DNA of 47,664 nt, taken from a virus. This document shows positions 4,584 to 28,167 of this stretch, in pieces; position 1 is the first letter of the stretch; each line of letters begins with the position of its first letter. The stretch spans positions 1-47,664 of the IMG/VR virus record IMGVR_UViG_3300032323_002845, one strand, 5' to 3'. The notes beneath the pieces were generated by a model. The model was given only the letters and a program-made list of their open reading frames with translations, searched no databases and was not told the DNA's origin. The translations under genes and the position numbers were made by a program.

Positions 4584-4979
4584 TCAGCGCGGAAACGACG
4601 GTGGGGGGGCAATAATCCACTTCGTGTATCCGTTGGATTTCGCCTTGTAGACCAGGTGAGGATTGAATCGAGCGTACATTCCGAAGGATGACGCGAAGGA
4701 TGCGAATGTCGGGCGCGGTTCAGTCTGCATTTGCCAGATGTCGTTAAGCGTGTATCGACCCGGGGGAGGAACGACGATATCGCGAACTCGGTTCGAGACG
4801 ACGAGCTTCACCTCGGGCAGCTTCTGATTCCGTTCGATGAAGTCGGAATGGACAGCGAGGTGCGGCATGGTTTTCGCGAGCGCGACGATCTCGTCCCAGA
4901 CTTCCGGGGTGTTCGCGTTGCGATAGATGATCTTCCCCGGACCAAGCCGGCGGAGTTGAGTGGTGAGATATTTGGTCAC
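4584..4979 (-). CDS. Hypothetical protein, 131 aa
   Basis: The start is GTG 4979 with AGGATGG about 12 bases upstream. The protein is a mixed alpha/beta sequence, basic at the N-terminus (MTKYLTTQLRRLGPGK), with a repeat-free body and a Pro-rich end (APPPSFPR). It is the last gene of the leftward replication operon, 31 bases after the primase-helicase. I recognise no domain. The position suggests a role in DNA metabolism, but that is only context. Confidence 0.65.
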   Translation of the reverse strand: MTKYLTTQLRRLGPGKIIYRNANTPEVWDEIVALAKTMPHLAVHSDFIERNQKLPEVKLVVSNRVRDIVVPPPGRYTLNDIWQMQTEPRPTFASFASSFGMYARFNPHLVYKAKSNGYTKWIIAPPPSFPR

Positions 4980-5010
4980 GGCGAGACCATCCTACTCTAT
5001 GGTTTCGTTG

Positions 5011-7224
5011 TCAATCCAAGGCGCCTGAATTTAACGGCGGCGAGATAGCCCACTTCACCTTGCCGGAGGCTTTGGTTTTCTTGAAGCGATGAGGATCCTG
5101 CTCATGCAATCGCGCCAGATAGACTCCGCAGGCGGTATTGAAGCGGAAGAGGCGGTCGGCCTCGCGGGAATACTTGGAGTCGCGGAGGATGGTTTCGAGG
5201 TCGGCGGCAGTGCCTCGCCAGGTGAGGAACTCGTTTTCGAAGATCACGGTGTCGATGAGGCCGATGAGTTGGTGCTCGGGCGACAGCTGCATGAGTTCCT
5301 CGAGGATGGCGGGGTGCTGGTAGGCTTTCAGGCCGCAGCGGGGTTCGACGAGGTGTTCGGGGACCGTGAGGCCGTCGAGGTAGTGAGCGAAGGCTGGGAG
5401 TTCGGTGTCGATGATCTCGCGGAGGACTTCGATTTCGGGGCCTGGCCAGGGGAGGGTGTGGCGGACGCAGCGCAGGATGATGAGCTTGTCGAGGAGGGAC
5501 GGGTCGAGCGGAGGGAGGACCTGGAGGTTCTCGGGCTCGTCGTTGAGGGAGAGCGACATGGCCCAGATGGGGCGCAGGGTGACGGCCTGGCGGTTCTTGG
5601 GGTGACAGGACTGGTCGATGTCGAAGAGCATCGATTTGATGTGGGAGCCGAGTGAGCGCCGTGAGTGGATATCGCGGCCGGGTGCCTCGTCGGAGATGCA
5701 GAGATGTTCGGAGGCGAAGAGGTCGCCGTTGAACTCGGTGGCGCCGGACATGTAGCGGTAGGGCTTGGCGATGCGGCCGCCGAGGAGCCGGGTGATGACG
5801 GCAGCCTGCACGAAGGACTTGCCGCACGCGGCGGGGCCGACGAGGGCGAGGGCTTGCGAAGCTCTCCAGGTGTTGGTGAGTACGGCGCGGCGGCGGAGCG
5901 CGAGCCAGAAGATGAGGCGCCAGTACTGGTCGTCGTTCTGGTCGAGGAGGTTGTGGAGGTAGGTCTGGATGCGGGCGCAGTCGCCGGGGGCAGCGGGGAG
6001 GGGAGCGACGGATTCGGTGACCAGGATGTTGCCGTAGAGACCGGCGCGGTGACCAGCGACGGAGCCGGCATAGCGGATCCGGGTGTCCCGGGTGCGGCGC
6101 AGGAGTTCGCGGTCCACGTCGGAGGCGCCGGTCTGGTCCTTGGTGGGGGAGACGCCGGACTCGGTGAAGAGGGTGCGGACACGCTCACCGTTGATCTGGG
6201 CGTAATCGCCCCAGGCGTTGCGGGTCCACCACTGGCCGGAGTTCGGATCGTAATGGAGGTCGTCGAGCGGGTTTTGAGATGCGGGTGCTGGTTGAGCGGG
6301 AACCGGGCGTGGGAGATCGCCAGCAGCGTCGAGGAGGCCCTGGATGGAGACGTCAGCAGGGATGGAGTCGGCGAGGTCCCAGCCGTCGGGGAGGGAGGAC
6401 GGGAGGGTGACGACGCGGGCGGCTGGCAGGCGGGCTTTCAGGTAGACCATGGCGTCGCGGCCTGGTTTGTCGTGGTCGGGCCATAGGATGATCGGGGTGG
6501 CGCGTGTCAGCAGGGGATCGAGGACCGCACGGCCGACCCGCTTGGAGCCGCCCTGCCAGGTGATGACGACGTGGGACGGGAAGAGCTTGGAAGCGGCGAC
6601 AGCGGTTTTCTCGCCCTCTACGATGAGGACGGGGTCGTTCGGGCGGCGGGTCAGGACGTGGAGGTTGAAGAGAGGGACCGGGTCGGGGTTGGGCCAGCCC
6701 TTCCAGCGCCAGTGGCGGGGGTTGAGCGGGTCGGGGAGTTGGTTGTCGGGCGGCAGGAGGCGCAGGGGCCGCACGTCCTTGGAGCCGTCGGGTAGGTCGA
6801 ACCGGACGACGTAGGCATGGATAGTTCCGTCCGGGTTGTGGTAGGGCCAGGCGGCGGTGCCGTAGCGGTACGGCTGAGAGGCGTCGGTGCGGTGACCGTG
6901 CTTGAGGGGATCGAACGAGCGCTGGGTGGGCTGGTAATCGTCGCGGATGCCGAGGAATTGGCGAGCCCAGGCGGCTGCCCGGCCGATGGGGAGTGTCTGG
7001 TTCTGGGCGACGAGGGCCAGGAGATCGCCACCCTCGCCAGCGGCGTGGTCGTACCAGAGGCCCTGCTTGGGGCCTTGGAGTTCGACGTACAGGGAGTCGC
7101 CGGAGTCGCCGAAGACGTTGCCGACGATCCACTGGGTGCCGATGCGGCGGCCAGCGGGGAGGAGTTGCGTGCAGAGTTCTTCAACGCGGACAGCGAGTGC
7201 GTCCGCGAGTTCGTGGAGTTCCAT
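5011..7224 (-). CDS. Toprim primase-helicase (D5/SF3-like), 737 aa
   Basis: The N-terminus has the LWYDHAAGEGGDLLAL segment typical of phage primase/helicase proteins. A toprim domain follows, with EGEKTAV at about 203-209 and the DHDKPGRD acidic motif at about 250-257, which coordinates the metals for primer synthesis. A C-terminal ATPase carries Walker A GPAACGKS (463-470), Walker B-like LCISDE (508-513) and a sensor-like WAMSLSLND, as in D5/SF3 helicases. No N-terminal zinc finger is visible. With no phage DNA polymerase in the genome, this enzyme probably starts replication forks that recruit the host polymerase. It is transcribed with the SF2 helicase and nuclease upstream. Confidence 0.85.
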   Translation of the reverse strand: MELHELADALAVRVEELCTQLLPAGRRIGTQWIVGNVFGDSGDSLYVELQGPKQGLWYDHAAGEGGDLLALVAQNQTLPIGRAAAWARQFLGIRDDYQPTQRSFDPLKHGHRTDASQPYRYGTAAWPYHNPDGTIHAYVVRFDLPDGSKDVRPLRLLPPDNQLPDPLNPRHWRWKGWPNPDPVPLFNLHVLTRRPNDPVLIVEGEKTAVAASKLFPSHVVITWQGGSKRVGRAVLDPLLTRATPIILWPDHDKPGRDAMVYLKARLPAARVVTLPSSLPDGWDLADSIPADVSIQGLLDAAGDLPRPVPAQPAPASQNPLDDLHYDPNSGQWWTRNAWGDYAQINGERVRTLFTESGVSPTKDQTGASDVDRELLRRTRDTRIRYAGSVAGHRAGLYGNILVTESVAPLPAAPGDCARIQTYLHNLLDQNDDQYWRLIFWLALRRRAVLTNTWRASQALALVGPAACGKSFVQAAVITRLLGGRIAKPYRYMSGATEFNGDLFASEHLCISDEAPGRDIHSRRSLGSHIKSMLFDIDQSCHPKNRQAVTLRPIWAMSLSLNDEPENLQVLPPLDPSLLDKLIILRCVRHTLPWPGPEIEVLREIIDTELPAFAHYLDGLTVPEHLVEPRCGLKAYQHPAILEELMQLSPEHQLIGLIDTVIFENEFLTWRGTAADLETILRDSKYSREADRLFRFNTACGVYLARLHEQDPHRFKKTKASGKVKWAISPPLNSGALD

Positions 7225-7453: not shown

Positions 7454-7821
7454 AGGTTGTCGGTGTCGGAGATTGAGCGGGCGATGATGGCGAGGCCGCC
7501 GGCGGCGTTGATCTGGTCGAGCCAGTTGATCTGGTCGGGCCGGACCTTGCCGGTGGGGGTCTTGACTTCGATGGAGAGGAACTGGGCGATCGGTTTGCCG
7601 ACCATGTCGGGTGTAACGGTCAGGGTGCGCCAGCCGATGAGGTCGCCGGACCCGGGAAACAGGCCCATACGGACATGACGGGCGTCCATCAGGAAGACGC
7701 CTTCGGGATCGCGCAGGGCCTTGCCGACGTAGCCCTCGCCGACCTGGTTGCGGAACACGCGGACGTGGGATTTGGAACCAGCGGCGCGGAGGATGAGAGC
7801 TTGGAGTTCGGATTCGGTCAC
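7450..7821 (-). CDS. VRR-NUC family nuclease, 123 aa
   Basis: GTG 7821 overlaps the helicase stop as GTGA, which fixes the start and rejects the longer frame to 7938. The order of motifs fits VRR-NUC (PD-(D/E)XK fold): N-terminal ESELQALIL, RVFRNQVGEGYVGK, GLFPGSGDLIGWR with the catalytic aspartate, FLSIEVKTPTGKVRPDQ with the ExK pair, then helix INWLDQINAAGG. At about 120 residues it is a stand-alone nuclease like those beside helicases in many phages. These act on flaps or junctions during replication and recombination. Confidence 0.85.
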   Translation of the reverse strand: MTESELQALILRAAGSKSHVRVFRNQVGEGYVGKALRDPEGVFLMDARHVRMGLFPGSGDLIGWRTLTVTPDMVGKPIAQFLSIEVKTPTGKVRPDQINWLDQINAAGGLAIIARSISDTDNL

Positions 7822-10070
7822 AGGATGGAGGTAAGTAGACTGGTCTTGCGGGAGCGAGCTTTCCAGCGGAAGAAAGCCCATCCCGGTTTGTAGCCACGCC
7901 GTGCGGCAAGGGCACGGAAATCTTCCAGAGTCCGACACATTCCTTCCTCGCGGCGTTCGTCGCGCTTCTTGGCGATGTCCTCGATGGACAGGCGCTGAAG
8001 CTCGCCATCGACTTCGTCGATCTCACGAGGATCGATCTCGCGTTCGGATCCGCACTGCGGGCAGGCGGTGCCGGCAAAGATTGCGAAGCACTTCGAACAC
8101 TGCTTGGTTTCGACCGGCTTGGATTTGGCCTTGCGCTTCTCGCGCCCTTCAAGGTCCCAGTCGCGGTCCTGCTCGGCCAAGCCGTGACGCAGGCAGTTTC
8201 CTACGTGGTCGAGGATGACAGCGTGAGTCTTGCCGGGGTAGGGTCTGAGAGCACGACCCAGCTGCTGCAAGTGCATGGACAACGAATGAGTGGGCCGAAG
8301 AAGAATAGCCGCGTTGACCGTGGGAAGATCGAACCCCTCGGAGATCAACTCGCAGCTGGTCAGAACCAGGATCCGGCCGGCCGTCAGGTCTTCCACGCGC
8401 TTCTTGCGGGTTTCCTGATCCAGCTGGCCGTCGATCGACGCTGCCGGGACGCCAGCGGCTTCAAACTGTGCCGCAACGTGCTGCGAGTGAGCGACGGAGA
8501 TGCAGAAGGCCACCGCCCGCTGGTTTGGGCAAAAGCGCCGGTAGTGCGTTACCGCGTCGCCGGTTATTTTTGGGGTGTCGATTACCTCGGCCGCCTCACC
8601 GAGATTGTAATCGCCGGCGAGCTTCGAGACGCCTGAGAGATCCACAGCCTCCCGGGGAGCGTAGTAGACCGGCCGTGCGAGGAATCCGTTGTCGATGAGC
8701 CAGCCGACGGTGGGTCCCATGACCATGCGATCGAACACGGCGCCGAGGCCCTTGCCATCCAGTCGCTCCGGGGTCGCGGTGACGCCGATGAATTTGGCGT
8801 TCGGCCAGGTGGCGAACATCTCGATGTAGGACTTCGAGACGGCGTGGTGGCAGTTGTGCACCACTATTCCGTTGGCCGTGTAGGTGTGGGTTCCGGTGGT
8901 CTCGAAATTGTAGACAAGACCGTCTGGACACACCTCGTCAAATCTACCCTGACCTCCGAGTTCGTGAATCTCAACACTCTCCACCCACGTGACTCCAGAA
9001 ATGCTGCTTTCTTGATGTCTTGAGCCCTTCGTTTGAGCGCGTTGTGAGAAAATCCGTCCACCTCGATCGCGATTTTCAACTCCGTGTTTCCTACGTCGAT
9101 CTTGTAGGCCGTTGGATAACCTGAGCCGCGTGGCATCTGAGTCGAGATTGGAACTTCTATTTTCCAGCCAAGCGCGCACGCGATCAACTGCTGAGCTAAT
9201 GTGGGCGCGGATCCGTTTCCACCACGAACCTGAGGCTTCCATTTCATTGCCCTGAGCTTCGCCGACACCTTTTCGCGAACTTCCGGCCGGCTCATTCCGT
9301 TGGATTTCCTGAATTGAGTGATCTCGCCTCCATGTTTTTTGAAGCTGTTTCGGATCGTCATGCGACTGAGTTCGGATTTGCACTTCGGATTCCCACAGAG
9401 TTTTCGAACTTTTTCGCTTGGAAACACCACGCCGCATATCACACAGGTACTCATTGTGCGGAATGGTGACAACCACCATACCTTTCGTCAACTCCGACGC
9501 TCTGATCCATCGGCCATCGGGCGCCGCGAATGGATGATTCAACGTGCAGGTGACCACGCGACCGCATGAAAATCGAATGGTGACCAACTTGCTCGCGCGA
9601 TTGCGGAACAACCTGACCACCGTTTCTTCTGTGAATCGGCATCCATCCCATCCGACAACACGCATTCCAGGGCGAATGTTTTCGATCGGTGTATCTCCGA
9701 TGAGCGTTCCTCGAACGAAGCATTCGTCGATGATGACCAGATCGGGTTCCGGGACCTTGTCGAACCTACGTGCCAGCGTCTGGATTGAGGCGACCATGGC
9801 AGATTGTTGAGCCATGAATTTGCCGGACTGGATGAATCCATGGGGCACGTTGACGCGTTTCAGAGTGGCGCTGATCTGCTCGAGGATTTCCTTCCGGTGC
9901 GCGACGATGATCACCTTGGAGCCGCGTTGCAGGACCTGCGAGGTGATGTAACTGAAGAGGACTGTCTTGCCGGATCCAGTGGGGCTCACCGCCAGCGGCC
10001 GTTTGGCGCCGGACCCGAACGCAGAGCGGATATCCTGAGCAAGCTGGTTTTGGTAGGGGCGCAGTTCCAT
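7818..10070 (-). CDS. SF2 DExH helicase containing an in-frame intein, 750 aa (460 aa after splicing)
   Basis: The start is ATG 10070 (MELRPYQNQLAQD). The N-extein has the Q-motif-like RPYQ and Walker A SPTGSGKT at 29-36. Motif II is split: residue 116 is the E of DE, and the C-HHA half resumes after 290 intein residues, so splicing would restore DECHH. The C-extein has GVTATPERLDGKG (motif III), then EGFDLP and QQLGRALRP (motif VI), then a zinc ribbon (CSKCFAIFAGTACPQC). It probably unwinds branched or replicating DNA together with the coupled VRR-NUC nuclease. The unspliced precursor should lack ATPase activity because the intein separates the catalytic box. No clear ribosome site is seen. 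Confidence 0.9.
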   Translation of the reverse strand: MELRPYQNQLAQDIRSAFGSGAKRPLAVSPTGSGKTVLFSYITSQVLQRGSKVIIVAHRKEILEQISATLKRVNVPHGFIQSGKFMAQQSAMVASIQTLARRFDKVPEPDLVIIDECFVRGTLIGDTPIENIRPGMRVVGWDGCRFTEETVVRLFRNRASKLVTIRFSCGRVVTCTLNHPFAAPDGRWIRASELTKGMVVVTIPHNEYLCDMRRGVSKRKSSKTLWESEVQIRTQSHDDPKQLQKTWRRDHSIQEIQRNEPAGSSRKGVGEAQGNEMEASGSWWKRIRAHISSAVDRVRAWLENRSSNLDSDATRLRLSNGLQDRRRKHGVENRDRGGRIFSQRAQTKGSRHQESSISGVTWVESVEIHELGGQGRFDEVCPDGLVYNFETTGTHTYTANGIVVHNCHHAVSKSYIEMFATWPNAKFIGVTATPERLDGKGLGAVFDRMVMGPTVGWLIDNGFLARPVYYAPREAVDLSGVSKLAGDYNLGEAAEVIDTPKITGDAVTHYRRFCPNQRAVAFCISVAHSQHVAAQFEAAGVPAASIDGQLDQETRKKRVEDLTAGRILVLTSCELISEGFDLPTVNAAILLRPTHSLSMHLQQLGRALRPYPGKTHAVILDHVGNCLRHGLAEQDRDWDLEGREKRKAKSKPVETKQCSKCFAIFAGTACPQCGSEREIDPREIDEVDGELQRLSIEDIAKKRDERREEGMCRTLEDFRALAARRGYKPGWAFFRWKARSRKTSLLTSIL
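8853..9722 (-). mobile_element. Intein in the DExH box of the helicase, 290 aa
   Basis: The insert starts with Cys (CFVRGTLIGDTPIENI...) at residue 117 and ends with VVHN before a Cys +1 extein residue, which is the canonical splicing set. Block A is CFVRGTLI; block B-like is the CTLNHPF segment with its histidine. Blocks F and G are LVYNFETTGTHTYTANGIVVHN-like (8853-8920). About 150 residues between the N- and C-terminal splicing parts look like non-folding sequence, because that DNA also encodes an endonuclease in the +1 frame (8864-9454). The site, inside the ATPase motif II, is a typical conserved position for inteins. Confidence 0.9.
8864..9454 (-). CDS. EDxHD/Vsr-like homing endonuclease nested in the intein in the +1 frame, 196 aa
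   Basis: This is a different frame from the helicase/intein on the same strand. Cys4, Cys7, Cys20 and Cys25 form a probable zinc finger. A NUMOD-like DNA-binding stretch follows (GMSRPEVREKVSAKLRA), then VRGGNG. The catalytic domain has YKID (D120) and IEVDGFSHN (E131, D133, H137), then D146 and GWRVLRFTNSEV, the pattern of Vsr-like/DUF559 nucleases. It would cut intein-less helicase alleles and drive intein homing. ATG 9454 is preferred; a TTG at 9472 is also in frame. The ribosome site is weak. Its stop (TAG 8866-8864) lies 11 bases before the intein end, so it overlaps the whole C-terminal splicing block. Confidence 0.85.
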   Translation of the reverse strand: MSTCVICGVVFPSEKVRKLCGNPKCKSELSRMTIRNSFKKHGGEITQFRKSNGMSRPEVREKVSAKLRAMKWKPQVRGGNGSAPTLAQQLIACALGWKIEVPISTQMPRGSGYPTAYKIDVGNTELKIAIEVDGFSHNALKRRAQDIKKAAFLESRGWRVLRFTNSEVRVDLTRCVQTVLSTISRPPEPTPTRPTE

Positions 10071-10132
10071 CGTGAGCCGCAGGCTGCGTTCTGCGGCTTG
10101 ACGTGTCAAGCACAAGCTGCACACTCGCCGGC
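10071..10132. promoter_or_regulatory. Divergent control region with hairpin and TTGAC palindrome
   Basis: This 62-bp region separates the leftward helicase operon from the rightward regulator gene. It has GCCGCAG/CTGCGGC (10076-10082, 10091-10097) and then CTTGAC-GT-GTCAAG (10097-10110). TTGACA on the minus strand (10109-10104) and TTGACG on the plus strand (10098-10103) could both serve as -35 boxes, 39 and 35 nt from their start codons. The -10 boxes are weak. The palindrome is a plausible operator for the adjacent ribbon-helix-helix protein. Confidence 0.55.
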
Positions 10133-10327
10133 ATGAGTAACACGATTCGAGTGAGCTACCGGTTGCCTATTGAGGTGGCCCAGATGCTGGAAGATGAGGC
10201 GATTCGAGCCCGCCGGACGAAAACTGCGGTGCTGATCATTGCGATCGAGGACCATGTCCTGCGGTGCGAGCATGATCGTGCGATCGAGTCCTCCAAGAAA
10301 CGCGTTGACACTCGGAAGAGTCGCTAG
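10133..10327 (+). CDS. Ribbon-helix-helix (CopG-like) DNA-binding protein, 64 aa
   Basis: The start ATG 10133 (MSNTIRVSYRLPIEVAQML) gives an N-terminal beta strand (TIRVSYRLP) followed by two helices (EVAQMLEDEAIRA and TKTAVLIIAIEDHV), the classic RHH fold. The tail is basic (SSKKRVDTRKSR). RHH dimers bind short inverted repeats, often at their own promoter. The CTTGAC-GT-GTCAAG site 23 bases upstream is a natural candidate. It may switch between the leftward replication operon and the rightward capsid block. A similar short RHH-like gene lies at 41376. Confidence 0.75.
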   Translation: MSNTIRVSYRLPIEVAQMLEDEAIRARRTKTAVLIIAIEDHVLRCEHDRAIESSKKRVDTRKSR

Positions 10328-10537
10328 CACGCTTCCCGCACGACGCATAGCCTGGTTTCGTCAACCGGGCGCGAACTGGGCGCGTTATTCCAGTTGGCCA
10401 AGAGCGCCGAAGGGCGTTCGCCGGTTCCACGGCTCGGACTCGCCACCGAGGTTGGATTGATGGTCTTAACAGACCTGCAATCTGCCTCGTTGTCTCGGAG
10501 GGGTAGGTGAAGTAAACCCCGAGGCAGGAGAGCCAAT
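10328..10537. other. 210-bp leader before the capsid gene
   Basis: No gene is supported. The last 60 bases contain an 8-bp perfect inverted repeat (10482-10489 and 10520-10527) and the capsid ribosome site. A promoter is expected here, but I see only weak matches (TTGGAT at 10453 with no good -10 box). Confidence 0.4.
10482..10527 (+). promoter_or_regulatory. Inverted repeat overlapping the capsid ribosome-binding region
   Basis: CTGCCTCG (10482-10489) is exactly complementary to CGAGGCAG (10520-10527). An inner GGGGT/ACCCC pair can extend the structure. The 3' arm abuts the AGGAG ribosome site (about 10526-10530) of the major capsid gene. The structure could tune capsid translation or stabilise the transcript 5' end. 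Confidence 0.45.
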
Positions 10538-12148
10538 ATGGCTAGTGGAAATGTAATCAGCTGTAAGCAGTTTGCTTCCTTCCTCGTCTCGCAGGAACCT
10601 GTGTACGACAAGGAAGTCCTCAAGGATATCCGCCCGTTTGACGGGATGATCGGATACTACAACACCGGATCGTTCGACGCGTATTCCGGCACGACCCACA
10701 CGTTCGATCGCTTCAACAGCGTGTTCCCGAACGTGACCGGTTCGTGGGAAAACCCCACCGGCGCCAGCTGCTCTGGCCAGCCGTGTGACCCGACCGAGAA
10801 CAAGATCGGATGGGGCTGGACCCGCAACACCTACTCGCTGGAGAAGCAGAGTTGGGGTTCGGACATCCTGTGCTTCGACCAGATCATGACGAAGACGAAG
10901 GCCAAAGAGCACTTCCGTCAGATCATCGACGACGTTCTTCGTCCCGCGACGAACTGGATCACCACGTACTACCTCCAGCGCAAGGCGATGGAGCTTTCCG
11001 GTTCGTTGGCTGGCGGTAACGCCTTCGCCTGCGCCGCTGGTCTGCCTCCGATCAACTTCTCTTGGGTTGGCGCTGGCTACACCACGCTGCGTGTGACCGA
11101 CAACGCCGCCGCCGCGATCACCGCTGCCTCGCTGGGCAAGCTCACCCCTGAGATCCTCCAGTCACGCGTGACTCGGCAGTATTTCTTGGGCGCCATCCAG
11201 GCCGGCAAGGACGGATACGATTCCCTCCAGCTGCACACCGACAAGGATACCTTCCGGTACCTGTCGAAGACCAACGCCACCCTGTATGATGCCTGGCGCT
11301 TCGGCGTTTTCGCCCCGGCCGCCAAGGAGTTCTACAAGTACGGCTTCATGGGCTACGTCGGTGACTTCATGGTGAAGGTGCTCCAGTTCCCGCTGCGCTT
11401 CAATGCGACGGCGACTGCGGGCAACTACACCCTGGTCCTGCCGTACAAGAACGTGGCTGCCACCGAGGGCATCAAGTCCGTCTTCAACGAGGACTACGAT
11501 CGCGCTCAGTACCAGATCAGCTACATCAACAACCCGCGTGCGCTGCGCGTGTTGCCGTTCCGCCCCGAGGCCGTGAACCCGAATATGCCGTTCATGGTTC
11601 GGGACTACGGTGGGCGGTGGAAGTTCGCGACCAACGACCTGGGCGCGGACTGCTCCGGAAAGCCGATCGACAACAGTCGCGGCAACAAGGGCAAGTTCAT
11701 CGCCGACTTCCAGTTGGCCGTGAAGCCTGAGCATCCGGAATGGCTTGAAGCCATCTTCCACAAGGTGGATCGTGGCTGCGTGGAAATCATCCCCGTCTGC
11801 GAGGCCGACCCTGGCAACCCGGCGCAGAACTACAACTCGGCGGACCCTGTCTGTGGCCCTGTGGTTCAGTTCACGGCTGTCCCGAACGACGCGGGCAACT
11901 ACGTCATCGGCAGCACCGGCATCCTGTGCGACGACAACATCGTTACCAATGCTGGTATCAGCGAGGCCACTCCGGCCGCGTTGGTCGCCGCGTTGCAGGT
12001 CGTCTGGGACGCCGAGTTCGGCGCCACCTCCGGCACCTGGAGCGTTGTGTCCGGCAACCTCATCCAGCTGGCTACGGTGTACTCGCCGTTCCCGACGGCC
12101 ACCGAGGTTGTGCCCTGCACGAACGTCACGCTCGAGTTCGCGATCTGA
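10538..12148 (+). CDS. Major capsid protein, 536 aa
   Basis: ATG 10538 follows AGGAGAGCCAAT, a good ribosome site. The large soluble protein has no signal peptide, an N-terminal helix-rich part (KAKEHFRQIIDDVLRPATNW) and a beta-rich second half ending in VTLEFAI. Context supports capsid: a strong isolated ribosome site, its own terminator, a small acidic gene next, and portal, scaffold-like and terminase genes elsewhere with no other candidate. It is unusually cysteine-bearing (CSGQPCDP, GADCSGKP, CVEIIPVCEAD, VCGPV, ILCDD, VPCTN). The capsid gene is rightward whereas portal and scaffold-like protein are leftward. I rely on context and general character rather than a diagnostic motif. Confidence 0.75.
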   Translation: MASGNVISCKQFASFLVSQEPVYDKEVLKDIRPFDGMIGYYNTGSFDAYSGTTHTFDRFNSVFPNVTGSWENPTGASCSGQPCDPTENKIGWGWTRNTYSLEKQSWGSDILCFDQIMTKTKAKEHFRQIIDDVLRPATNWITTYYLQRKAMELSGSLAGGNAFACAAGLPPINFSWVGAGYTTLRVTDNAAAAITAASLGKLTPEILQSRVTRQYFLGAIQAGKDGYDSLQLHTDKDTFRYLSKTNATLYDAWRFGVFAPAAKEFYKYGFMGYVGDFMVKVLQFPLRFNATATAGNYTLVLPYKNVAATEGIKSVFNEDYDRAQYQISYINNPRALRVLPFRPEAVNPNMPFMVRDYGGRWKFATNDLGADCSGKPIDNSRGNKGKFIADFQLAVKPEHPEWLEAIFHKVDRGCVEIIPVCEADPGNPAQNYNSADPVCGPVVQFTAVPNDAGNYVIGSTGILCDDNIVTNAGISEATPAALVAALQVVWDAEFGATSGTWSVVSGNLIQLATVYSPFPTATEVVPCTNVTLEFAI

Positions 12149-12160
12149 TCGGTCAAACTG

Positions 12161-12190
12161 GGGGCTCTCCTTCGGGAGGGCCCCTTCTCG
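12161..12190 (+). terminator. Terminator hairpin with UUCG loop after the capsid gene
   Basis: GGGGCTCTCC-TTCG-GGAGGGCCCC forms a 10-bp stem (one G-U pair) closed by a C(UUCG)G tetraloop, followed by TTCTC. The U-tract is weak, so it may attenuate transcription rather than stop it, or protect the 3' end of the capsid mRNA. Either would favour high capsid output over the downstream genes. Confidence 0.65.
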
Positions 12191-12256
12191 AGGGGCTGGT
12201 AGCCGCCCGGCGCGTCCGGGATGCTGGCAGCCTCTCAACAAGGAAAGGATTTTACG

Positions 12257-12520
12257 ATGTACGGACAAATGATGGGCAAACGCAAGATGGACGGCATGGG
12301 CCGCATGGGTCCCGAGGTGGAGACTGTCGAGTTCACCCCTCCGAAAGAACTGAAGCTCGAAGGCGAGTCCGGCACCGCCATGGTTGACTGGCGCACCACG
12401 CCGCGTGGCACCATTGAAATCATCGGATTCGATGGCATCACCCTCGGTGAGTCCGGCAAGCAGGACATGGAGGAAGATGCCGTAGAGAACGAGATGGACG
12501 ACATGGAGGAGGAAGCCTGA
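12257..12520 (+). CDS. Hypothetical protein with acidic tail, 87 aa
   Basis: ATG 12257 follows AGGAAAGGA at good spacing. The N-terminus is Met/Gly-rich (MYGQMMGKRKMDGMGRMG), the middle is beta-prone (GTIEIIGFDGITLGE), and the end is strongly acidic (DMEEDAVENEMDDMEEEA). It is placed right after the capsid gene and before a likely decoration protein. A head-associated or assembly role is possible. No domain is recognised. Confidence 0.7.
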   Translation: MYGQMMGKRKMDGMGRMGPEVETVEFTPPKELKLEGESGTAMVDWRTTPRGTIEIIGFDGITLGESGKQDMEEDAVENEMDDMEEEA

Positions 12521-12521
12521 T

Positions 12522-12926
12522 ATGCCCGCCCTGACGCCATCTCAGATCGCCGCCTTGAGTGGCTGTTTCGACTGCCTGTCGCCTGGCATCAAGGAGACCT
12601 ACATGGTCACCTTGCTCCAGCAGATCCAGGGGTCGCTTCCTGGCGCTTCGTTGACGACCAGCAGCACGGGCGGTCTGTTGACCGTCACGGCCACGTCCGC
12701 AGCCAACCTGGCGCGGAAGAAATTCACGCTCCAGAACCAGAAGAATGAGGTGCTGTATCTGAAGTTCGGCACCGGTGCCAGCACGACGGATTACCACATC
12801 CAGTTGCAGGAGCATAACGCTGGTTCCAAGCATTCTCAGCCTTTCATCCTGGACGGCTACGTCGGCGCCATCAGCGTCGCGCCGGCCACCGGGAACCCGT
12901 CCTACACCTTCGCCGAATTTGTCTGA
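12522..12926 (+). CDS. Putative capsid-associated protein, 134 aa
   Basis: The start is one base after the previous stop, with GGAGGAGG in the end of that gene as ribosome site. The N-terminal part is helical (LTPSQIAALSGCFDCLSP, with a CFDC pair). A beta-rich domain follows (KKFTLQNQKNEVLYLKFG...YHIQLQEHN...FILDGYVGAISVAPAT). This looks like a small virion protein, perhaps a head decoration or fibre-attachment protein, given its place between capsid and fibre genes. The assignment is from context. Confidence 0.65.
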   Translation: MPALTPSQIAALSGCFDCLSPGIKETYMVTLLQQIQGSLPGASLTTSSTGGLLTVTATSAANLARKKFTLQNQKNEVLYLKFGTGASTTDYHIQLQEHNAGSKHSQPFILDGYVGAISVAPATGNPSYTFAEFV

Positions 12927-12929
12927 CCT

Positions 12930-14819
12930 ATGCCTACCCCTTCCATCCAAACGCTCGTCACCGACGCGCAGCAGATCCTGAATCTCGATTCGATCTCTGC
13001 CGTTCGGTCCGTCGTCGCCGTTGCCCTGGCCAACGCCAACACCGGCACGCCGCTCAACCCGAACCTTACCACGCAACAGCTATGGAACGAGTTCTACCAG
13101 GTCGTCAACAAGCCGAAGAGCGACATCGAGTCGATCATCGCGAACCAGTTGATGAAGCTGCTGTTTGCTCCGCCCGCTCCTGGCGGCGCTGGCGCGAACA
13201 AGCAGGTGATTTTCAACGACGGTGGCACGTTGGCTGGGGATGCGGGTCTGATCTACGACAAGGCGACTGACAAGCTGACAGTTGGCACCAACGTCGATAT
13301 CTGGCGTGGGTTGCTGAATGACAACGCCAGCACGGCGGTTGGCAACACCGCGCTGGCGGCGACGTTGGCGGGTGCGGTCAACAACACCGCACTCGGTTAC
13401 CGGGCGATGTATCGGGCGTCCACGGGTGCGAACAACGTGGCGGTTGGAGCAAACAGCTTGTCCGGTCTGGCAATGACCGGCGGAAGCAATGTAGCCGTCG
13501 GAAGCAGTGCGATGCAGAACAACACCAGCGGCATATCAAACGTCGCCGTTGGAAGCAGCGCATTGTTTACAAACTCCACTCAGGGGTACAATACCGCTGT
13601 TGGAGACAGTTCTCTTTCTGTTTGCACGGGGTCAGGAAACACCGCACTCGGAGGTGTTTCCGGTAAAAACATCACAACTGGTATTTCCAATGTCGCAATT
13701 GGAACATCCACACTTGGTGGCGCATCTGCTGCGATAACTCACACTGGAAGCTACAACATCGCTATTGGCGAAGCTGCAATGTACAGCAGCAGCAGCATTT
13801 CTGGATCCGACAATATCGGCATTGGTCGGAATACGCTGTCATCATTGGCTACTGGATTAGGAAACGTAGCTGTTGGTCTTGTGTCAGGTCTTGGAATCAC
13901 CACAGGAGGTTACAATACCTGCGTTGGACAAGCGGCTGGTCGAAAGATCAGCACCGCAAACAACAACATCGCAATCGGTCGAGACGCCATGAACTCTGCC
14001 GGTAATGTTACCGGAGGAGACAATGTGGCCGTTGGTGTCAATTCTTTTGTTAACCTGACTGGCGGTGTGCGAAACATCGCCATTGGAACGAACACGCTCC
14101 AGTACGTCTCGACTCAGGCCGACAACGTCGCGATTGGATATGCTGCTTTGCTGAACAATCAGCAGAATGCAAACGTCGCAATCGGAACCAGTGCGTTGCG
14201 AGCGAACACTACTGGTGGAGAGAATGTTGCGATTGGTCATGAGGCGTTGACTTCAAATGTTACATCGGCTTTTAACACTGCTGTCGGACACCAAGCTGCA
14301 AGTCTTACAACCGCAGGAAACACAACTGCGATTGGGCGCAGGGCTTTGTATGTAAATACAACTGGCACAGACAATACTGCCGTTGGTGCAGCCTCTTTGG
14401 TTGCCAACACAACTGGTATTCAAAATACAGCAATCGGAACTGCTGCTTTGGCAAGCCAAACTGGAGCAAATTACAATTCTGCGGTTGGAGCTTACGCTCT
14501 TACACTTGCCACTGGAGGTTTCAACACAGGAATTGGAGCTTACGCTCTTAGTGCAGTTGTATCAGGCGGAAACAATACCGCTCTTGGAATATCGGCAGGA
14601 TTTAGTACCACAAGCGGATCTTCAAACATTTTTCTGGGAAGAGACTCTGCGGCAATTTCTGCAACCGACAGTAATCAAATTGTTGTTGGTTCCCCTGCTT
14701 TTTGGGTTGGCACCAACGGAGCCGCCAACACCTACTACGCCACCGCTGGCGCCTCCCAAGGCTACTGGCGCGTAATCATCAACGGCACCGCTCGCAAGAT
14801 CCAAGTCTTCGCTGACTAA
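12930..14819 (+). CDS. Fibre/adhesin-like protein with YadA-head-type beta-roll repeats, 629 aa
   Basis: Residues 1-110 form a non-repeated head, helical, then GGAGANKQVIFNDGG. From about residue 120 to 600 there are some 25-30 degenerate repeats of the type NTAVGxxAL / NVAIGxxAL about 14-20 residues long. This is the left-handed parallel beta-roll motif of YadA/Hia adhesin heads and some phage fibres. The end (YWRVIINGTARKIQVFAD) is a short capping domain; no chaperone domain is visible. It probably trimerises and decorates the virion or binds the host. Codon usage and GC content drop clearly within the repeats (about 13440-14700) compared with both neighbours. No ribosome site is evident. 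Confidence 0.8.
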   Translation: MPTPSIQTLVTDAQQILNLDSISAVRSVVAVALANANTGTPLNPNLTTQQLWNEFYQVVNKPKSDIESIIANQLMKLLFAPPAPGGAGANKQVIFNDGGTLAGDAGLIYDKATDKLTVGTNVDIWRGLLNDNASTAVGNTALAATLAGAVNNTALGYRAMYRASTGANNVAVGANSLSGLAMTGGSNVAVGSSAMQNNTSGISNVAVGSSALFTNSTQGYNTAVGDSSLSVCTGSGNTALGGVSGKNITTGISNVAIGTSTLGGASAAITHTGSYNIAIGEAAMYSSSSISGSDNIGIGRNTLSSLATGLGNVAVGLVSGLGITTGGYNTCVGQAAGRKISTANNNIAIGRDAMNSAGNVTGGDNVAVGVNSFVNLTGGVRNIAIGTNTLQYVSTQADNVAIGYAALLNNQQNANVAIGTSALRANTTGGENVAIGHEALTSNVTSAFNTAVGHQAASLTTAGNTTAIGRRALYVNTTGTDNTAVGAASLVANTTGIQNTAIGTAALASQTGANYNSAVGAYALTLATGGFNTGIGAYALSAVVSGGNNTALGISAGFSTTSGSSNIFLGRDSAAISATDSNQIVVGSPAFWVGTNGAANTYYATAGASQGYWRVIINGTARKIQVFAD

Positions 14820-14837
14820 TCTCTACCCACTCACACC

Positions 14838-15173
14838 ATGACCTACACCTGGACCCCTACCGCCTTGATCGGCTACCCTCAGTACGAGGGTCAGACCGAT
14901 GTCATCACCACCGCCTTCTACACCGTCCTCGCGGACGACGGCGCTGGCCACACCGCTTCGATTCAGGGCATTCAGCCCACGCCGCTGGATCCCGCTGCGC
15001 CGTTCATCCCGTATCCTTTGCTCACGCCTGAAATCGTCGTGGGTTGGATTCAGTCCAACCTCGGGCCTAACGGCGTTGCCAGCATCGAGATAAACCTCGC
15101 TGCCCAGATTGAAGCGCAGATCAACCCGCCGGTTTCGCCGATGGCGTTTCCGTTGCCGTGGGTAACCGCTTAA
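14838..15173 (+). CDS. Conserved phage structural-type protein (DUF7936-like), 111 aa
   Basis: The start is ATG 14838 in an ACC-ATG context without a ribosome site. The layout is WTPTALIGYPQYEGQTDVI, a beta-rich middle, LTPEIVVGWIQSNLG, then AAQIEAQINPPV and a final FPLPWV. This pattern (YP..EG.tDvV ... W...lg ... QI..q..P ... PW) resembles small proteins found next to fibre genes in many phages. I recall it as DUF7936, which needs checking. Function unknown, probably virion or fibre associated. Confidence 0.65.
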   Translation: MTYTWTPTALIGYPQYEGQTDVITTAFYTVLADDGAGHTASIQGIQPTPLDPAAPFIPYPLLTPEIVVGWIQSNLGPNGVASIEINLAAQIEAQINPPVSPMAFPLPWVTA

Positions 15174-15213
15174 TGGTTGTCAAAAGCCATACAGCGCCAT
15201 ACGCTGAACGCCC

Positions 15214-15396
15214 ATGACTCAAATCTCGTTCACCACTGAGGAACTCACCGCCATCGTTCAATGCGCCGACCTGGCGATCAAAGCTGGAGGGTTGCAGAAC
15301 GCCCGCGTTCTGGTGCCCATCTGCGACAAGATCGCTCTGGCCACGGCGCCCAAATTGGAAGCCATCGAAAATGCTGGAGAACCCAAACAACCTTGA
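15214..15396 (+). CDS. Hypothetical protein, 60 aa
   Basis: A short helical protein (FTTEELTAIVQCADLAIKAGG...CDKIALATAPKLEAIE) with two cysteines. Its last 26 bases overlap the next gene. It lies at the head of the lysis cassette, which suggests co-expression, but no function can be given. Confidence 0.6.
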   Translation: MTQISFTTEELTAIVQCADLAIKAGGLQNARVLVPICDKIALATAPKLEAIENAGEPKQP

Positions 15397-15574
15397 GGTA
15401 CGCATCGTGAGACTCGAGACCATCATCGGTGACAAGGACGCTGGTATGGTATCCGACATCCACGGCATCAAATCCACGCTCGAGGGCCTGAAGCAGTTTC
15501 AGTGGAAGCTGTTTGGTGGCCTTGGGGTTTTGGTTGTGCTGGCACAACTCATTGGTAGGATCGGACTGAAATGA
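15371..15574 (+). CDS. Small membrane protein with N-terminal coiled coil (holin-cassette, XhlA-like), 67 aa
   Basis: The first about 40 residues are charged and helical (VRIVRLETIIGDKDAGM...GIKSTLEGLKQFQWK). One membrane span follows (LFGGLGVLVVLAQLIGRIGL) and a short basic end. Coiled coil plus C-terminal span is the layout of XhlA/hemolysin-type accessory lysis proteins. It overlaps the downstream holin by 4 bases (ATGA), which supports a joint role in lysis. Confidence 0.65.
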   Translation: MLENPNNLEVRIVRLETIIGDKDAGMVSDIHGIKSTLEGLKQFQWKLFGGLGVLVVLAQLIGRIGLK

Positions 15575-15753
15575 ACGACTCCATCAAATCCATCGTCCGC
15601 CACGGCCTTTCGTTCGGAGGCGGGTTCCTTGTCGCTAAGGGCCTCGTCACCGTTGACCAGGCGAACGAATTGGCAGGTGCCGTGATCACCCTTCTCGGCG
15701 TCGGCTGGTCCGTGTGGAACAACCGGAAGTCCAAGACTCCGCCGGCTCCTTGA
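15571..15753 (+). CDS. Holin, Pam3_gp28-like, 60 aa
   Basis: The protein has a short amphipathic N-terminus (MNDSIKSIVRHG) and a hydrophobic hairpin-like region (GLSFGGGFLVAKGLV...AGAVITLLGVGWSVW) with a VTVDQANE turn. It ends in a charged tail (NNRKSKTPPAP). Size and pattern fit the small two-span holins often annotated Pam3_gp28 type. It would form inner-membrane lesions at the end of infection. It is coupled by ATGA upstream and by a TTGA overlap downstream. Confidence 0.75.
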   Translation: MNDSIKSIVRHGLSFGGGFLVAKGLVTVDQANELAGAVITLLGVGWSVWNNRKSKTPPAP

Positions 15754-15923
15754 ACTGGATCTACCAGTTGGTGAGGGCGCTTCTCGATTTCATTCGGGAG
15801 GCGCCCCAACCGAAAATCACTGACGGAAATGCTCCGAAGCCTCTCAAAGACGATCTCCACGATCGCATTGCTGACCTGCCTGGGCTGCCAGCAGACCAAG
15901 GTGATCCTCGTTCCCCACGGTGA
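15750..15923 (+). CDS. Small lysis-cassette protein starting at TTG, 57 aa
   Basis: TTG 15750 overlaps the holin TGA as TTGA, continuing the coupled chain, and removes a spurious N-terminus in the longer frame. The N-terminus (NWIYQLVRALLDFI) is hydrophobic/amphipathic and could touch the membrane. The body is charged (KPLKDDLHDRIADLPG). It overlaps the next, lipoprotein-like gene by 95 bases in another frame, reminiscent of nested Rz/Rz1 spanin genes, though a clear transmembrane span is missing. Function uncertain. Confidence 0.55.
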   Translation: MNWIYQLVRALLDFIREAPQPKITDGNAPKPLKDDLHDRIADLPGLPADQGDPRSPR

Positions 15924-16053
15924 TCCCGTGCTACTCGCGGAGCCGGTGAAGGCCAAGGTTTACGCGTTCGACGCGCAGGGGAACATGACCGGATACCCCA
16001 CGAAGGTCACGATTCCAGCCGGCTGGTACGCTCTCCCGAAACGCCGCCCATGA
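15829..16053 (+). CDS. Putative lipoprotein (Rz1-like position), 74 aa
   Basis: A basic start (MLRSLSK), a hydrophobic stretch (TISTIALLTCLGC) and cysteines at a lipobox-like LGC suggest a signal-peptidase II lipoprotein. The mature part is beta-prone (VILVPHGDPVLLAEPVKAKV ... VTIPAGWYALP). It begins inside the preceding gene in the +1 frame and ends in an ATGA overlap with the next. By place it could be the outer-membrane spanin subunit. The C-terminal sequence is not the usual proline-rich Rz1 type, so the role stays open. Confidence 0.6.
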   Translation: MLRSLSKTISTIALLTCLGCQQTKVILVPHGDPVLLAEPVKAKVYAFDAQGNMTGYPTKVTIPAGWYALPKRRP

Positions 16054-16295
16054 TCACCTACCGAGGCCAGAAGTTCGCCGGCTACAACAAGCCCAAGGCT
16101 ACCCCCGGCGGCCCGAAGAAATCGGCCGTGCTGGCCAAGGAAGACGGCAAGGTGCGTCTGGTTCGCTTCGGCGATCCCAAGATGCCGATCAAGAAGCACA
16201 TCCCGGCCAACCGAAAAAGTTTCCGGGCCCGCCACGGTTGCAGCGAGCCCGGCACGAAGCTGAGTGCTAAGTATTGGTCCTGTCGGGCCTGGTAG
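16050..16295 (+). CDS. Conserved small basic phage protein (ARHGC...YWSC type), 81 aa
   Basis: A lysine/arginine-rich protein (ITYRGQKFAGYNKPKATPGG) with VRLVRFGDPKMPIKKHIPA and an end motif SFRARHGCSEPG...AKYWSCRAW. The SFRARH...YWSC ending is shared by many small phage proteins of unknown function and is related in style to DUF6321. The two conserved cysteines and a histidine may bind metal. It ends one base from the stop of the convergent leftward scaffold-like gene. Confidence 0.7.
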   Translation: MITYRGQKFAGYNKPKATPGGPKKSAVLAKEDGKVRLVRFGDPKMPIKKHIPANRKSFRARHGCSEPGTKLSAKYWSCRAW

Positions 16296-16296
16296 G

Positions 16297-17562
16297 TCAG
16301 TACGCTGAGGGCAGTTCGTCGATCGCGTCCTCCGCGTTCTTTGGCGACACCCGGGTAGCGGTCGAGGTGCCTTCGCCCTGGCCGGGTTCAGACGACCGGA
16401 CCTTGCCGACCTTCTTTTCAAGTTCGGCCACCTTTTGCTGGAGGCGGATCACCCGCAGGCGCTCGCGCCCGTAGGCCCGCGCCCGCAGAGCAACCTGGGC
16501 CTGAGCCTTCGTGATGAGGTCAACCTTGTCGTCGTAGCCCATGTCGGCGTCGATGCCCTCGCCCTTGAGTGCGATACGCACCAGGCGGTCGCTCTCGTCC
16601 AGGAGCTTGTTGCCTTCTTCGTCGCTGTCGTCACGGCCGAACAGCTGAGCGTGGGTCTTTTCGTAGTCGGCAAACTGCGACTCAAACAGGTCACGCGAGC
16701 GCGTCTGGCGACTCTCCAGCTGCTTCTTTGATTCGACCTCGCGCTGGGCGCCCTTCTCTTTCCACTCGGCGATGGACTTGTCCCGCGCCTGGGTCAACTC
16801 GATGAGCCGGCGGCGGTGCGCCATGATCTCGGGCGCGGCCGGCCCGAAGGTCTCCTGAGCGATGATAGCAGCCTTGGCCACCGGCACGTTCAGAAGCGCC
16901 ATAATGTCCTGATGATTAGCGTCACGCTCTGTGCCGTCCTCATCTGTGACGCGGATGCCCTCGATGTCGCCCAGGGCGGTCTGCCAGGCATCGCGCAAGG
17001 GCGTCTCGTACTTCTGCTTGTACTCGCCGGAGCGAGTGTAGTTCAGGTAGCGGACCTCGGTGTCGAGTTCCTCGGCATTCTTGCGGATCGCATCCATCTC
17101 CGCCTTGAGAGACTTTGTGGCTTCCTCAACCTCCTTACGGGTGCCGTCAGCCTTGGCGCGCTCAAGCTCCTGGATCTTGGAGGCCAGATCGTCGCGCTCC
17201 TTCTTGGTCATCTCGTACTGCTCGCGAAACTGCTTCAACGAGGCAGGCTCTGACTTGGCAGGCGCTTCCTGCTTGGCCGGGGCCGGGGCCGGCTCGTCCT
17301 TCTTGGCGGTGAACTTGTCCAGGTTGAACAGGTCATCGACCGCCGGTTTCGTGGGTTCAGGCGCGGCAGCGGCAGCGGTGGGTGCAGCCGGGGTAGGAGC
17401 CGTGGCAGCAACGGGTGCTGGCGCCGGTTCAGGAGCGGCAGGCGCCGGCGACCCCATCGGGTTTTCAAGCGCATTGCCTTCGAGCGCGTCGATGCCGGCG
17501 AAGGCTTCAGTGTAATCTGCGCCCCGTTCAGTTGGCGCGTCAGGTGATAGCAGCAAGTTCAT
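16297..17562 (-). CDS. Scaffold-like assembly protein, 421 aa
   Basis: The N-terminal third is disordered and rich in Pro/Ala (about residues 37-75). A long coiled coil follows (LKQFREQYEMTKKERDDLASKIQELERAKA ... LKAEMDAIRKNAEELD, about 108-170), then a helical region, a second coiled coil near the end (RVIRLQQKVAELEKKVGKV) and a polar tail. High charge, no cysteine and coiled coils beside the portal gene fit a scaffolding protein, which shapes the procapsid and is then lost. It overlaps the upstream gene by ATGA. Confidence 0.7.
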   Translation of the reverse strand: MNLLLSPDAPTERGADYTEAFAGIDALEGNALENPMGSPAPAAPEPAPAPVAATAPTPAAPTAAAAAPEPTKPAVDDLFNLDKFTAKKDEPAPAPAKQEAPAKSEPASLKQFREQYEMTKKERDDLASKIQELERAKADGTRKEVEEATKSLKAEMDAIRKNAEELDTEVRYLNYTRSGEYKQKYETPLRDAWQTALGDIEGIRVTDEDGTERDANHQDIMALLNVPVAKAAIIAQETFGPAAPEIMAHRRRLIELTQARDKSIAEWKEKGAQREVESKKQLESRQTRSRDLFESQFADYEKTHAQLFGRDDSDEEGNKLLDESDRLVRIALKGEGIDADMGYDDKVDLITKAQAQVALRARAYGRERLRVIRLQQKVAELEKKVGKVRSSEPGQGEGTSTATRVSPKNAEDAIDELPSAY

Positions 17563-25013: not shown

Positions 25014-25014
25014 A

Positions 25015-28000: not shown

Positions 28001-28167
28001 TCATCAACAACGGTGGCAAATTCGGCTCCAGTTTTCTGCCAGGGCGACCTAGTCGTTGTGTTGCGCCTCTTCAGCAAACCTTCTATTTGGATTGCCCAGA
28101 GGGGTGTCTCGACATTCAATGCGACCCCGGCCCGTGCAAGCCTAACGATTACCTTTACCGCATCTGA
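25015..28167 (+). CDS. Tailspike with beta-helix and repeated HG-type domains, 1050 aa
   Basis: ATG 25015 overlaps nothing and follows the nozzle stop directly. The start (NPVDYGADPCGLRNSAWAIN ... FPEGTFLIG) is the usual opening of pectate-lyase-like phage tailspikes. Beta-helix rungs are seen at about 220-250 and 500-560 (CEFYDFGVGIADAE, GTIVRRNRFGY) and 670-800 (CVFEYNRIEGG, VRYNNFDGF). About six copies of a 60-70-residue repeat (HGL.VGD.V...G..DPTFNGT..V) interrupt it near 52-122, 335-395, 400-465, 585-655, 822-890 and 905-970. The C-terminus is cysteine-rich (DCPEGCLDIQCDPGPC). It likely binds or degrades a surface polysaccharide; no catalytic residues can be fixed by eye. Confidence 0.75.
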   Translation: MPSSNPVDYGADPCGLRNSAWAINLCLMYSGRCDFPEGTFLIGSAPGAKITSRFRFGGVAGFTTATPHGLVVGELITLDGFTDPTFNGIGAAQLGFRVDAVVSPTQFTATVPGGNSALVTEDGWINLIGGGYTSSIPLGYGGSIVDPRNGQTVTFTLRDNIAFTGKGAGKTRVKFANHTSTTRGDSFGFNIQPLKCLGNYTGTGGLVSNPANYPSMPVGATNCKNLTIEGITFDGNYVNNGPKDITIVSVERTAGINTYTTAFPAKFQISAPPAYSPPVLPAPSNQSTYSHYIDGVVTSGSSNDGTFNGFGPVINVTSLTFQRDMRCPLIGVTRNAFNFAIYTKHPDFNFGYTVGDSITVTGFSNPAFNGSFVVAGFLSAQEVYCINVGAATSVIGYERLTGVGYYDTAGTHGFTGGETVIITGLADPTMNGTFIVTGAPFPNQFTAINAGPDTGIFADNGTYQLRSNIAKSWTAPDVALTPQTKAGVNSLFTVAGLNLVGENTIVQDCEFYDFGVGIADAETFVLKSFLPSTVVDRSHGTIVRRNRFGYQGRNSVQATIHPGTSEANTQCAIGGYSSMLVTVIAASRVNATSRATYTTTERHGLRVGDSVVFLGVSDPTFNGTYTVATIISDTKFSVIQAGVDYPDTYMAVGSVLLPRPLRILAADCVFEYNRIEGGPNPLTQQCPVHGITPRDTFGAEVRYNNFDGFTGTCFYVDTFQHIGTHVHHNSALNISAFMALTVQDWYATAVQFGFTNPPSYAAWIAAHRDLLIEYNDVLLTGPDSWYYQPALAPLDAVFVINNHDVNRSAYYYPTDYQIPISSAVRSSGVSTITTVSAHEIQPGMEVSIVGVADGTFNGVFTVTSSPSSTSFTVDNPGVNTTSPASTDDFVGINKPVNFPWEIRMSARSRAGGVATYTTTKAHNMQLGYHVTLEGFSDPTFNGQFIVTGMPTTTTFQVANAGTDVATVTESGNFFRYVENVQIRCNTVRRLSGNELFINNGGKFGSSFLPGRPSRCVAPLQQTFYLDCPEGCLDIQCDPGPCKPNDYLYRI

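Follow-up and report, generated by a model that had tools for sequence, protein, structure and literature searches.

Modules of a tail fibre and its chaperone are classical in phages, as exemplified by gp37/gp38, S/U and stf/tfa. In the Alteromonas phages A5 and V22, modules of a tail fibre and its cognate chaperone are common to distantly related phages, and the authors suggest that the chaperones act as transient fibre caps (PMC10579305). The head fibres gp21 and gp29 of crAss001 possess a short capsid-docking N-terminus and a distal domain that is found in unrelated phages; part of the C-terminus of gp21 is 40% identical to gp8.5, the head fibre of phi29, and gp22, numbered next after the head fibre gp21, is a tail fibre (PMC10172136). 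Head fibres may aid attachment (PMC7602432). For pelagiphages, the table of island genes includes tail fibre assembly and XkdW-like proteins (PMC3909814). As far as the available parts of these reports tell, tip swapping in tail fibres, fibre-chaperone modules and modular head fibres are all already known.

The window analysed here has 47,664 bases and makes up a single virus record. We assign a probability of roughly 0.7 to the reading that its fibre is a modular virion fibre, composed of a lineage anchor and a repeatedly exchanged adhesin distal part and served by a dedicated DUF7936 partner. The N-terminal anchor (residues 1-79, with a hinge to about 118) is specific for the phage lineage and would hold the fibre on the particle. 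The distal part, a putative beta-roll of 17-residue repeats with a short tip, would bind something outside, presumably combining adhesion with oligomeric assembly. Recombination would repeatedly swap it for other adhesin modules, and the DUF7936 protein would be a dedicated partner fitting one class of distal modules. The features are as follows.

10538-12148, plus strand: 536 aa clade-conserved protein, candidate major capsid protein; best segments 64-95% identical in 38 IMG/VR relatives
12221-12520, plus strand: conserved 99 aa gene between the candidate capsid gene and the fibre gene; match in 38/38 relatives
12522-12926, plus strand: conserved 134 aa gene directly before the fibre gene; match in 38/38 relatives, in L033 at just 27%
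12930-14819, plus strand: fibre gene, an open reading frame of 629 aa
12930-13166, plus strand: fibre anchor, residues 1-79, the minimal conserved part by identity among relatives; four helices in a low-confidence model
13167-13283, plus strand: hinge or linker, residues 80-118, where homology to relatives with other modules stops
13284-14684, plus strand: beta-roll-like adhesin body of 17-residue repeats, recognised by repeat motifs; GC-poor from 13548
14685-14816, plus strand: C-terminal tip ending KIQVFAD, common to the unrelated phage L136
14838-15173, plus strand: DUF7936 gene, 111 aa, class-matched fibre partner; Pfam PF25590 at 61.3 bits, cut-off 27
15371-15574, plus strand: first conserved gene right of the exchanged block, 67 aa; open reading frame at the points where homology resumes
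38403-39404, plus strand: RecT-like annealing protein; phrog_561 at E 3e-69, Pfam RecT at 24.2 bits, cut-off 24

A conserved anchor with an exchanged distal part

The fibre protein consists of an anchor of about 118 residues, the repeats and a short tip with the end RVIINGTARKIQVFAD. A loose motif detects 27 repeats past residue 118. With a stricter motif there are 24, and 15 of the 23 spacings between them are of 17 residues; this period also dominates in nine relatives. The first repeats start near residue 130, still in GC-rich DNA. Matches in PHROGs comprise two 'head and packaging' families ('virion structural'), one 'tail spike' family and one unknown family. At E up to 1, Pfam contains no family for the window protein, and by the same database the Peptidase_S74 C-terminal chaperone domain is absent from it. 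The earlier note had described the repeats as YadA-head-like. The repeats themselves are confirmed, but membership in the YadA family was rejected, since the period is 17 and not about 14 and Pfam searches with nine members revealed no YadA family at E <= 1 (the HMMER filters drop most matches above 0.1).

The AlphaFold model of the fibre has a pLDDT of 59, and a Foldseek search with it gave nothing at E <= 0.001. VIA-align with this poor model returned mostly tailspikes and polysaccharide enzymes, the best row having a Z of 16.9 over 268 residues at an rmsd of 4.1. A profile search of the fibre alignment found a chain named CA3 (E 0.003), which we take to be a left-handed beta-helix protein and which indicates general resemblance alone; no head-fibre chain was among the PDB matches of the alignment. 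The model of the 134 aa protein combines a helix with beta strands at low confidence (mean pLDDT 69.1). Neither model is good enough for a fold to be named.

When viral sequences were scanned with the neighbouring 536 aa protein (10538-12148), 38 related IMG/VR contigs emerged of uncultured viruses, here called the clade. The fibre anchor was found in all of them, in 37 at 63-92% identity and in L033 at 37%. Past the anchor, the clade fibres diverge into at least five different distal modules. Including the window, 10 fibres are of the repeat type, 7 are S74-like, 7 have a YRGS tip, 10 have a DYEEGT tip and 5 belong to none of these, where all labels except the repeat type denote short motifs and Pfam confirmed S74 in L021 (58.7 bits) and not in L001. 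A pectate-lyase-like module follows directly after residue 79 in L015, and all ten repeat-type fibres share a related C-terminal tip. Uniform old divergence across the gene, named in the earlier note as the pattern that would speak against its reading, was not seen: window and L034 are 92% identical in residues 1-118 and just 42% in residues 208-593. In L033 the anchor homologue lies on a short protein (12706-13209, about 167 residues) that lacks a long fibre portion, and the anchor may thus also occur as a small protein of its own.

The breakpoints are sharp. DNA homology to the 28 relatives that carry other modules (not counting L033, which has none) breaks off at 13155-13284 and resumes in 25 of them, mostly at 15367-15376 or 15750 and singly at 15176, 15569 or 15748. 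It does not resume in L009 and L010, with less than 1 kb of sequence beyond, and in L018, with 6 kb of downstream sequence. Mapped onto a maximum-likelihood tree built from the conserved neighbour protein (partial in L038), the repeat type requires 9 changes for 10 rows, compared with 8.9 for shuffled labels, and thus shows no clustering. For all classes together, 21 changes stand against 23.5 in shuffles, a value as low being reached in 20 of 200 shuffles. The DYEEGT class is clustered (4 changes, as low in 0 of 500 shuffles), and therefore not every class moves freely.

Pairwise DNA comparison, in which pairs with L038 were omitted, illustrates the exchange. L022 and L023 are 98% identical in the adjacent gene, 94% in the anchor and 93% in DUF7936, and 63% identical both in the 105 codons before the tip and in the tip. 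As the flanks are kept and the middle has diverged, the adhesin was replaced between them. L029 and L035 behave alike (adjacent gene 93%, anchor 97%, 105 codons 61%, tip 74%, DUF7936 92%). The left-hand crossovers would probably fall in the hinge DNA and the right-hand ones in or past DUF7936, and the RecT-like protein is a possible helper in cassette exchange.

An invertible cassette was considered and rejected: 12900-15800 contains two inverted pairs (18 nt and 15 nt), neither of which brackets the exchanged block. The 18-nt pair is an imperfect inverted repeat around the hinge (13160-13177 and 13440-13457, 89% complementary, 262 nt apart) that may be due to chance. No RNA families were found in 10000-16500, a promoter scan gave no more than chance level, and terminator-like sites numbered 7 with 3.7 expected.

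Base composition and origin of the repeat core

The earlier note had also seen a shift to AT-rich codons within 13440-14700, with both ends of the gene in the local style, and this observation holds. In blocks of 30 codons, GC3 of the fibre gene ranges over 0.73-0.87 as far as 13469, drops to 0.67 in the block that follows and lies at 0.23-0.63 over 13560-14639. The two best change points fall at codons 207 and 593 (nt 13548 and 14708; log-likelihood gain 48.4) and separate GC3 values of 0.78, 0.39 and 0.81. For 13440-14699, GC3 is 0.417, compared with 0.820 +/- 0.019 expected from the codons of neighbour genes (2000 synonymous draws, the lowest 0.752) and 0.752 +/- 0.021 expected from the wider codon usage of structural genes. 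The core thus lies far outside local codon usage, and since the observed value is far under the synonymous expectation, the amino-acid content does not explain it. Tip and DUF7936 gene are GC-rich in the window. Further stretches of low GC3 occur elsewhere, with lowest 900-nt values of 0.53 in the helicase gene 7818-10124, 0.58 in 31409-32452 and 0.62 in both 24820-28167 and 32464-38361. The DNA helicase encoded at 7818-10124 (minus strand) carries an insertion that is intein-like, with a score of 29.8 bits for Pfam Intein_splicing against a cut-off of 35.8 and a weak match to PT-HINT.

According to the earlier note, a bacterial YadA-like core had been fused between a phage anchor and a phage tip, and both the sharp change points within the gene and a motif reminiscent of YadA would fit such an event. 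However, a pattern scan of bacteria and archaea (one genome each for 84,980 species, reaching close relatives only) detected a single relative of the core, at 33% identity, whereas the same patterns gave 34 relatives in viral contigs. Core relatives were also present in 4 plasmid records and 84 phage records, all at less than 60% identity. A bacterial origin of the core was rejected on this comparison, which covers close bacterial relatives, the one weak match being all that appeared. What stands of the proposed chimera is a resident anchor with an exchanged distal part; the bacterial import is not supported, the relatives found for the core being almost all viral.

The low GC content is not special to the beta-roll-like body either. 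Anchor GC3 exceeds distal GC3 in 35/35 distinct fibres and in every class (means 0.71 and 0.47), with 35 of 39 fibres kept because identical fibres were counted once and L033 was left out; there GC3 runs the opposite way (0.54, then 0.74), the start of the reading frame is probably misplaced and the figures are not comparable. Since the distal modules, whatever their class, have a lower GC content than the phage that carries them, low GC is no mark of a single bacterial import but a property of exchanged modules as a class, and an internal GC step in the fibre gene of a phage does not have to signal import from bacteria. GC3 of the distal part rises with that of the phage itself (rho 0.63), so the modules are not simply fresh imports; the correlation favours either a long stay in the phage or exchange between phages whose composition is alike.

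The GC-rich 3' end of the gene, previously taken for a resident phage tip, proved to be mobile. L136 matches tip and DUF7936 (14673-15166) at 82% identity over 500 bp, and the first part of the repeats at 79% over 153 bp. Its hinge resembles that of the window, whereas it has another anchor and a diverged middle. The 8.3 kb of L136 examined contain no match to the clade anchor or to the 10538-12148 protein. As L136 shares tip and DUF7936 without the clade anchor, the tip travels too. With period 17, no YadA family in Pfam, GC-poor distal modules throughout and a mobile tip all against it, the bacterial import appears highly improbable. By eye, the small genes right of the cassette (window 15371-16295) have look-alikes behind the L136 cassette (4753-5881); they are membrane-like and lipoprotein-like, perhaps lysis genes.

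Alternatively, low GC3 could be selected in repeat or fibre genes, by translation pacing or repeat stability, and hold no trace of origin. The order of anchor and distal GC3 in all 35 fibres and the tracking of phage composition are consistent with selection. Against it, GC3 in the window is high in the first repeats as well as in tip and DUF7936, and in S-CBP3 the entire fibre has a GC3 of 0.26-0.53 without a drop; we regard selection as rather unlikely. The Synechococcus phage S-LBS1 has a similar GC3 step (0.75, 0.66, then 0.29-0.56; capsid gene 0.74).

DUF7936 as class-matched partner gene

Within the clade, the type of the downstream gene agrees with the distal class in 34/34 classed fibres. 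Subtype Y of DUF7936 accompanies the repeat type (10/10, with agreement in 8/8 independent pairs), and subtype W accompanies S74-type and YRGS-type fibres (14/14) and also L010 of the unclassed group. DYEEGT-type fibres are followed by a different small gene (10/10), and the remaining four unclassed fibres have neither. Three added contigs (one S74, one YRGS, one DYEEGT, none of the repeat type) obey the W and DYEEGT rules. Among the subtype-W rows, the tree shows 6 changes of tip class; DUF7936 similarity tracks the phage (rho 0.64), whereas tip similarity does not (0.17).

A class match of this kind might arise if DUF7936 hitchhikes through the need of recombination for similar flanking DNA, without a role in fibre assembly. 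Right-hand crossovers need similar DNA and the subtypes Y and W differ strongly, so linkage can also yield the match: crossovers within a class would be possible inside DUF7936 and those between classes only beyond it, which alone would preserve the match in the clade. Because linkage can mimic it, we examined DUF7936 loci outside the clade, using the best 80 of at least 541 confirmed loci, ranked by likeness to the window protein, of which 73 are outside. A repeat fibre with at least 8 repeats lies directly upstream of DUF7936 in 54 of these 73 best outside loci (40 of 56 clusters); in a control with another reading frame, such repeats were found in none of the 73. The pair occurs without the clade anchor in unrelated phages of very different composition, with upstream GC3 down to 0.11, which speaks against hitchhiking; we consider it an unlikely account. 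Among 12 chosen fibres, one of them that of the window, all 66 pairs match in their last 200 residues and 15 of 66 in their first 80.

In 19 of the 73 outside loci there is no repeat fibre upstream of DUF7936, 5 of which have less than 600 nt of sequence there, and in cyanophages DUF7936 is located behind S74-like (S-RIP1) and DYEEGT-type (S-CBP3) fibres. Partner specificity is therefore not universal.

The role proposed for DUF7936 is most likely that of an assembly chaperone or a (transient) cap, and the analysis thereby offers this family a testable role. The exchange of the distal part, often together with the small partner gene, probably gives the viruses new binding tips. No description of the pairing of repeat fibre and DUF7936 was recognised in the literature, mostly represented by abstracts, and one full-text search for DUF7936 gave no hit.

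Head or tail, and comparison with known systems

The fibre gene had been placed beside the capsid gene by the earlier note. Its close linkage to the 10538-12148 gene is confirmed across the clade, but the capsid identity has no database support: Pfam, PHROGs and PDB sequences gave no significant match to this protein, nor did the phage collection. About 1.2 kb of extra DNA, absent from the window, separates the 99 aa gene from the 134 aa gene in L003 (8632-9816), L007 (7713-8978) and L031 (7884-9068).

Outside the clade, the genes upstream of DUF7936-linked repeat fibres encode a major head protein in L148, a crassvirus-type capsid protein in L163 (homologue L199), a head-protease-containing protein in L139 and L146, and two portal families (L165/L182; L180 and kin). 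In L145, a 22% homologue of the 10538-12148 protein stands upstream of another DUF7936-linked fibre. A PHROG scan of 49 upstream neighbours from 25 loci (30 chosen of the 73, of which 25 gave neighbours) gave up to 15 of them the name of a portal, a head protease or a head or major head protein and a single one that of a tail spike, counting the first 25 of 35 families and including 7 portals from related phages. By contrast, neighbours of repeat fibres fetched regardless of DUF7936 gave 12 tail-named and 2 head-named family matches, among the first 25 of 68 families with possibly overlapping members. This comparison covers 50 of the 83 neighbours of the L057-L090 fibres, a choice that dropped mainly minus-strand and duplicate neighbours; it used both sides, whereas the scan of 49 used upstream genes alone, and its set includes L064 with a DUF7936-like gene. 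Both scans are bounded by the chosen representatives and by related lineages. DUF7936-linked neighbourhoods, from few independent lineages, lean to the head, and on gene neighbourhoods a head fibre is plausible.

Instead, the protein could be an ordinary tail fibre merely near capsid-side genes, and the swapping the usual host-range evolution of receptor binding. This is suggested by the one 'tail spike' family among the PHROGs matches of the fibre and by pelagiphage tail fibres with a hypervariable YadA-domain C-terminus behind a conserved N-terminus, as described in the available parts of PMC3909814. In addition, a linker resembling the window hinge is present in the Synechococcus phages S-LBS1 and S-CBP3, where at least one record calls the protein a tail fibre and DUF7936 lies downstream with other genes between; in cyanophages, DUF7936 follows genes whose products are tail fibres by annotation or presumption. 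On the other hand, the window contains other tail-fibre-like genes at 24.8-30.7 kb, and the head-side neighbours in the DUF7936-linked scan outnumber the single tail spike. The tail fibre has, in our estimate, somewhat less than an even chance. Neighbourhood alone does not decide between head and tail, as the consecutive numbers of head fibre and tail fibre in crAss001 demonstrate in the available part of that report, and the odds that the fibre sits on the head and not on the tail are about even.

At 24820-28167 (plus strand) a spike-like protein of 1115 aa is encoded, which was matched in 27 of the 28 relatives searched (of 38). In many relatives the matches form separate pieces around a weak End_beta_barrel part, which suggests inserted or lost modules.

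The modular virion fibre can be extended, tentatively and somewhat short of even odds, to a mobile head-fibre cassette. A 17-residue-repeat adhesin with KI-type tip and dedicated DUF7936 would circulate among unrelated tailed phages and plug via the hinge into lineage-specific anchors at capsid or portal loci. If true, head surfaces, besides tails, would be rapidly re-equipped adhesion organs.

Several known systems resemble this locus in part, as far as the available sections of the respective reports describe them. Like the modules of A5 and V22, the window has a fibre gene with a small partner gene, and the pair occurs in distantly related phages; unlike there, the partner is DUF7936, a putative chaperone, and the fibre lies beside capsid-side genes. 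The distal domains of the crAss001 head fibres are short (gp21 residues 42-97, gp29 residues 58-118), unlike the long repeat body of the window. Pelagiphage tail fibres (PMC3909814) share the conserved N-terminus, the variable C-terminus and, in one case, a YadA domain, but they have a T7-like tail-fibre anchor, and those sections describe no DUF7936-like partner. The left-handed beta-roll heads of YadA and BpaC share with the window short repeats with an N..(A/V)xG core. Their repeats comprise about 14 residues (PMC9543794, as far as available) and those of the window 17. Many viral fibres with 17-residue repeats end, by eye, in S74-like tails, whereas the window fibre ends in a KIxVF tip that is followed by DUF7936. 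If such exchange also takes place at head-side loci, together with a defined partner family, capsid surfaces would evolve by cassettes, too.
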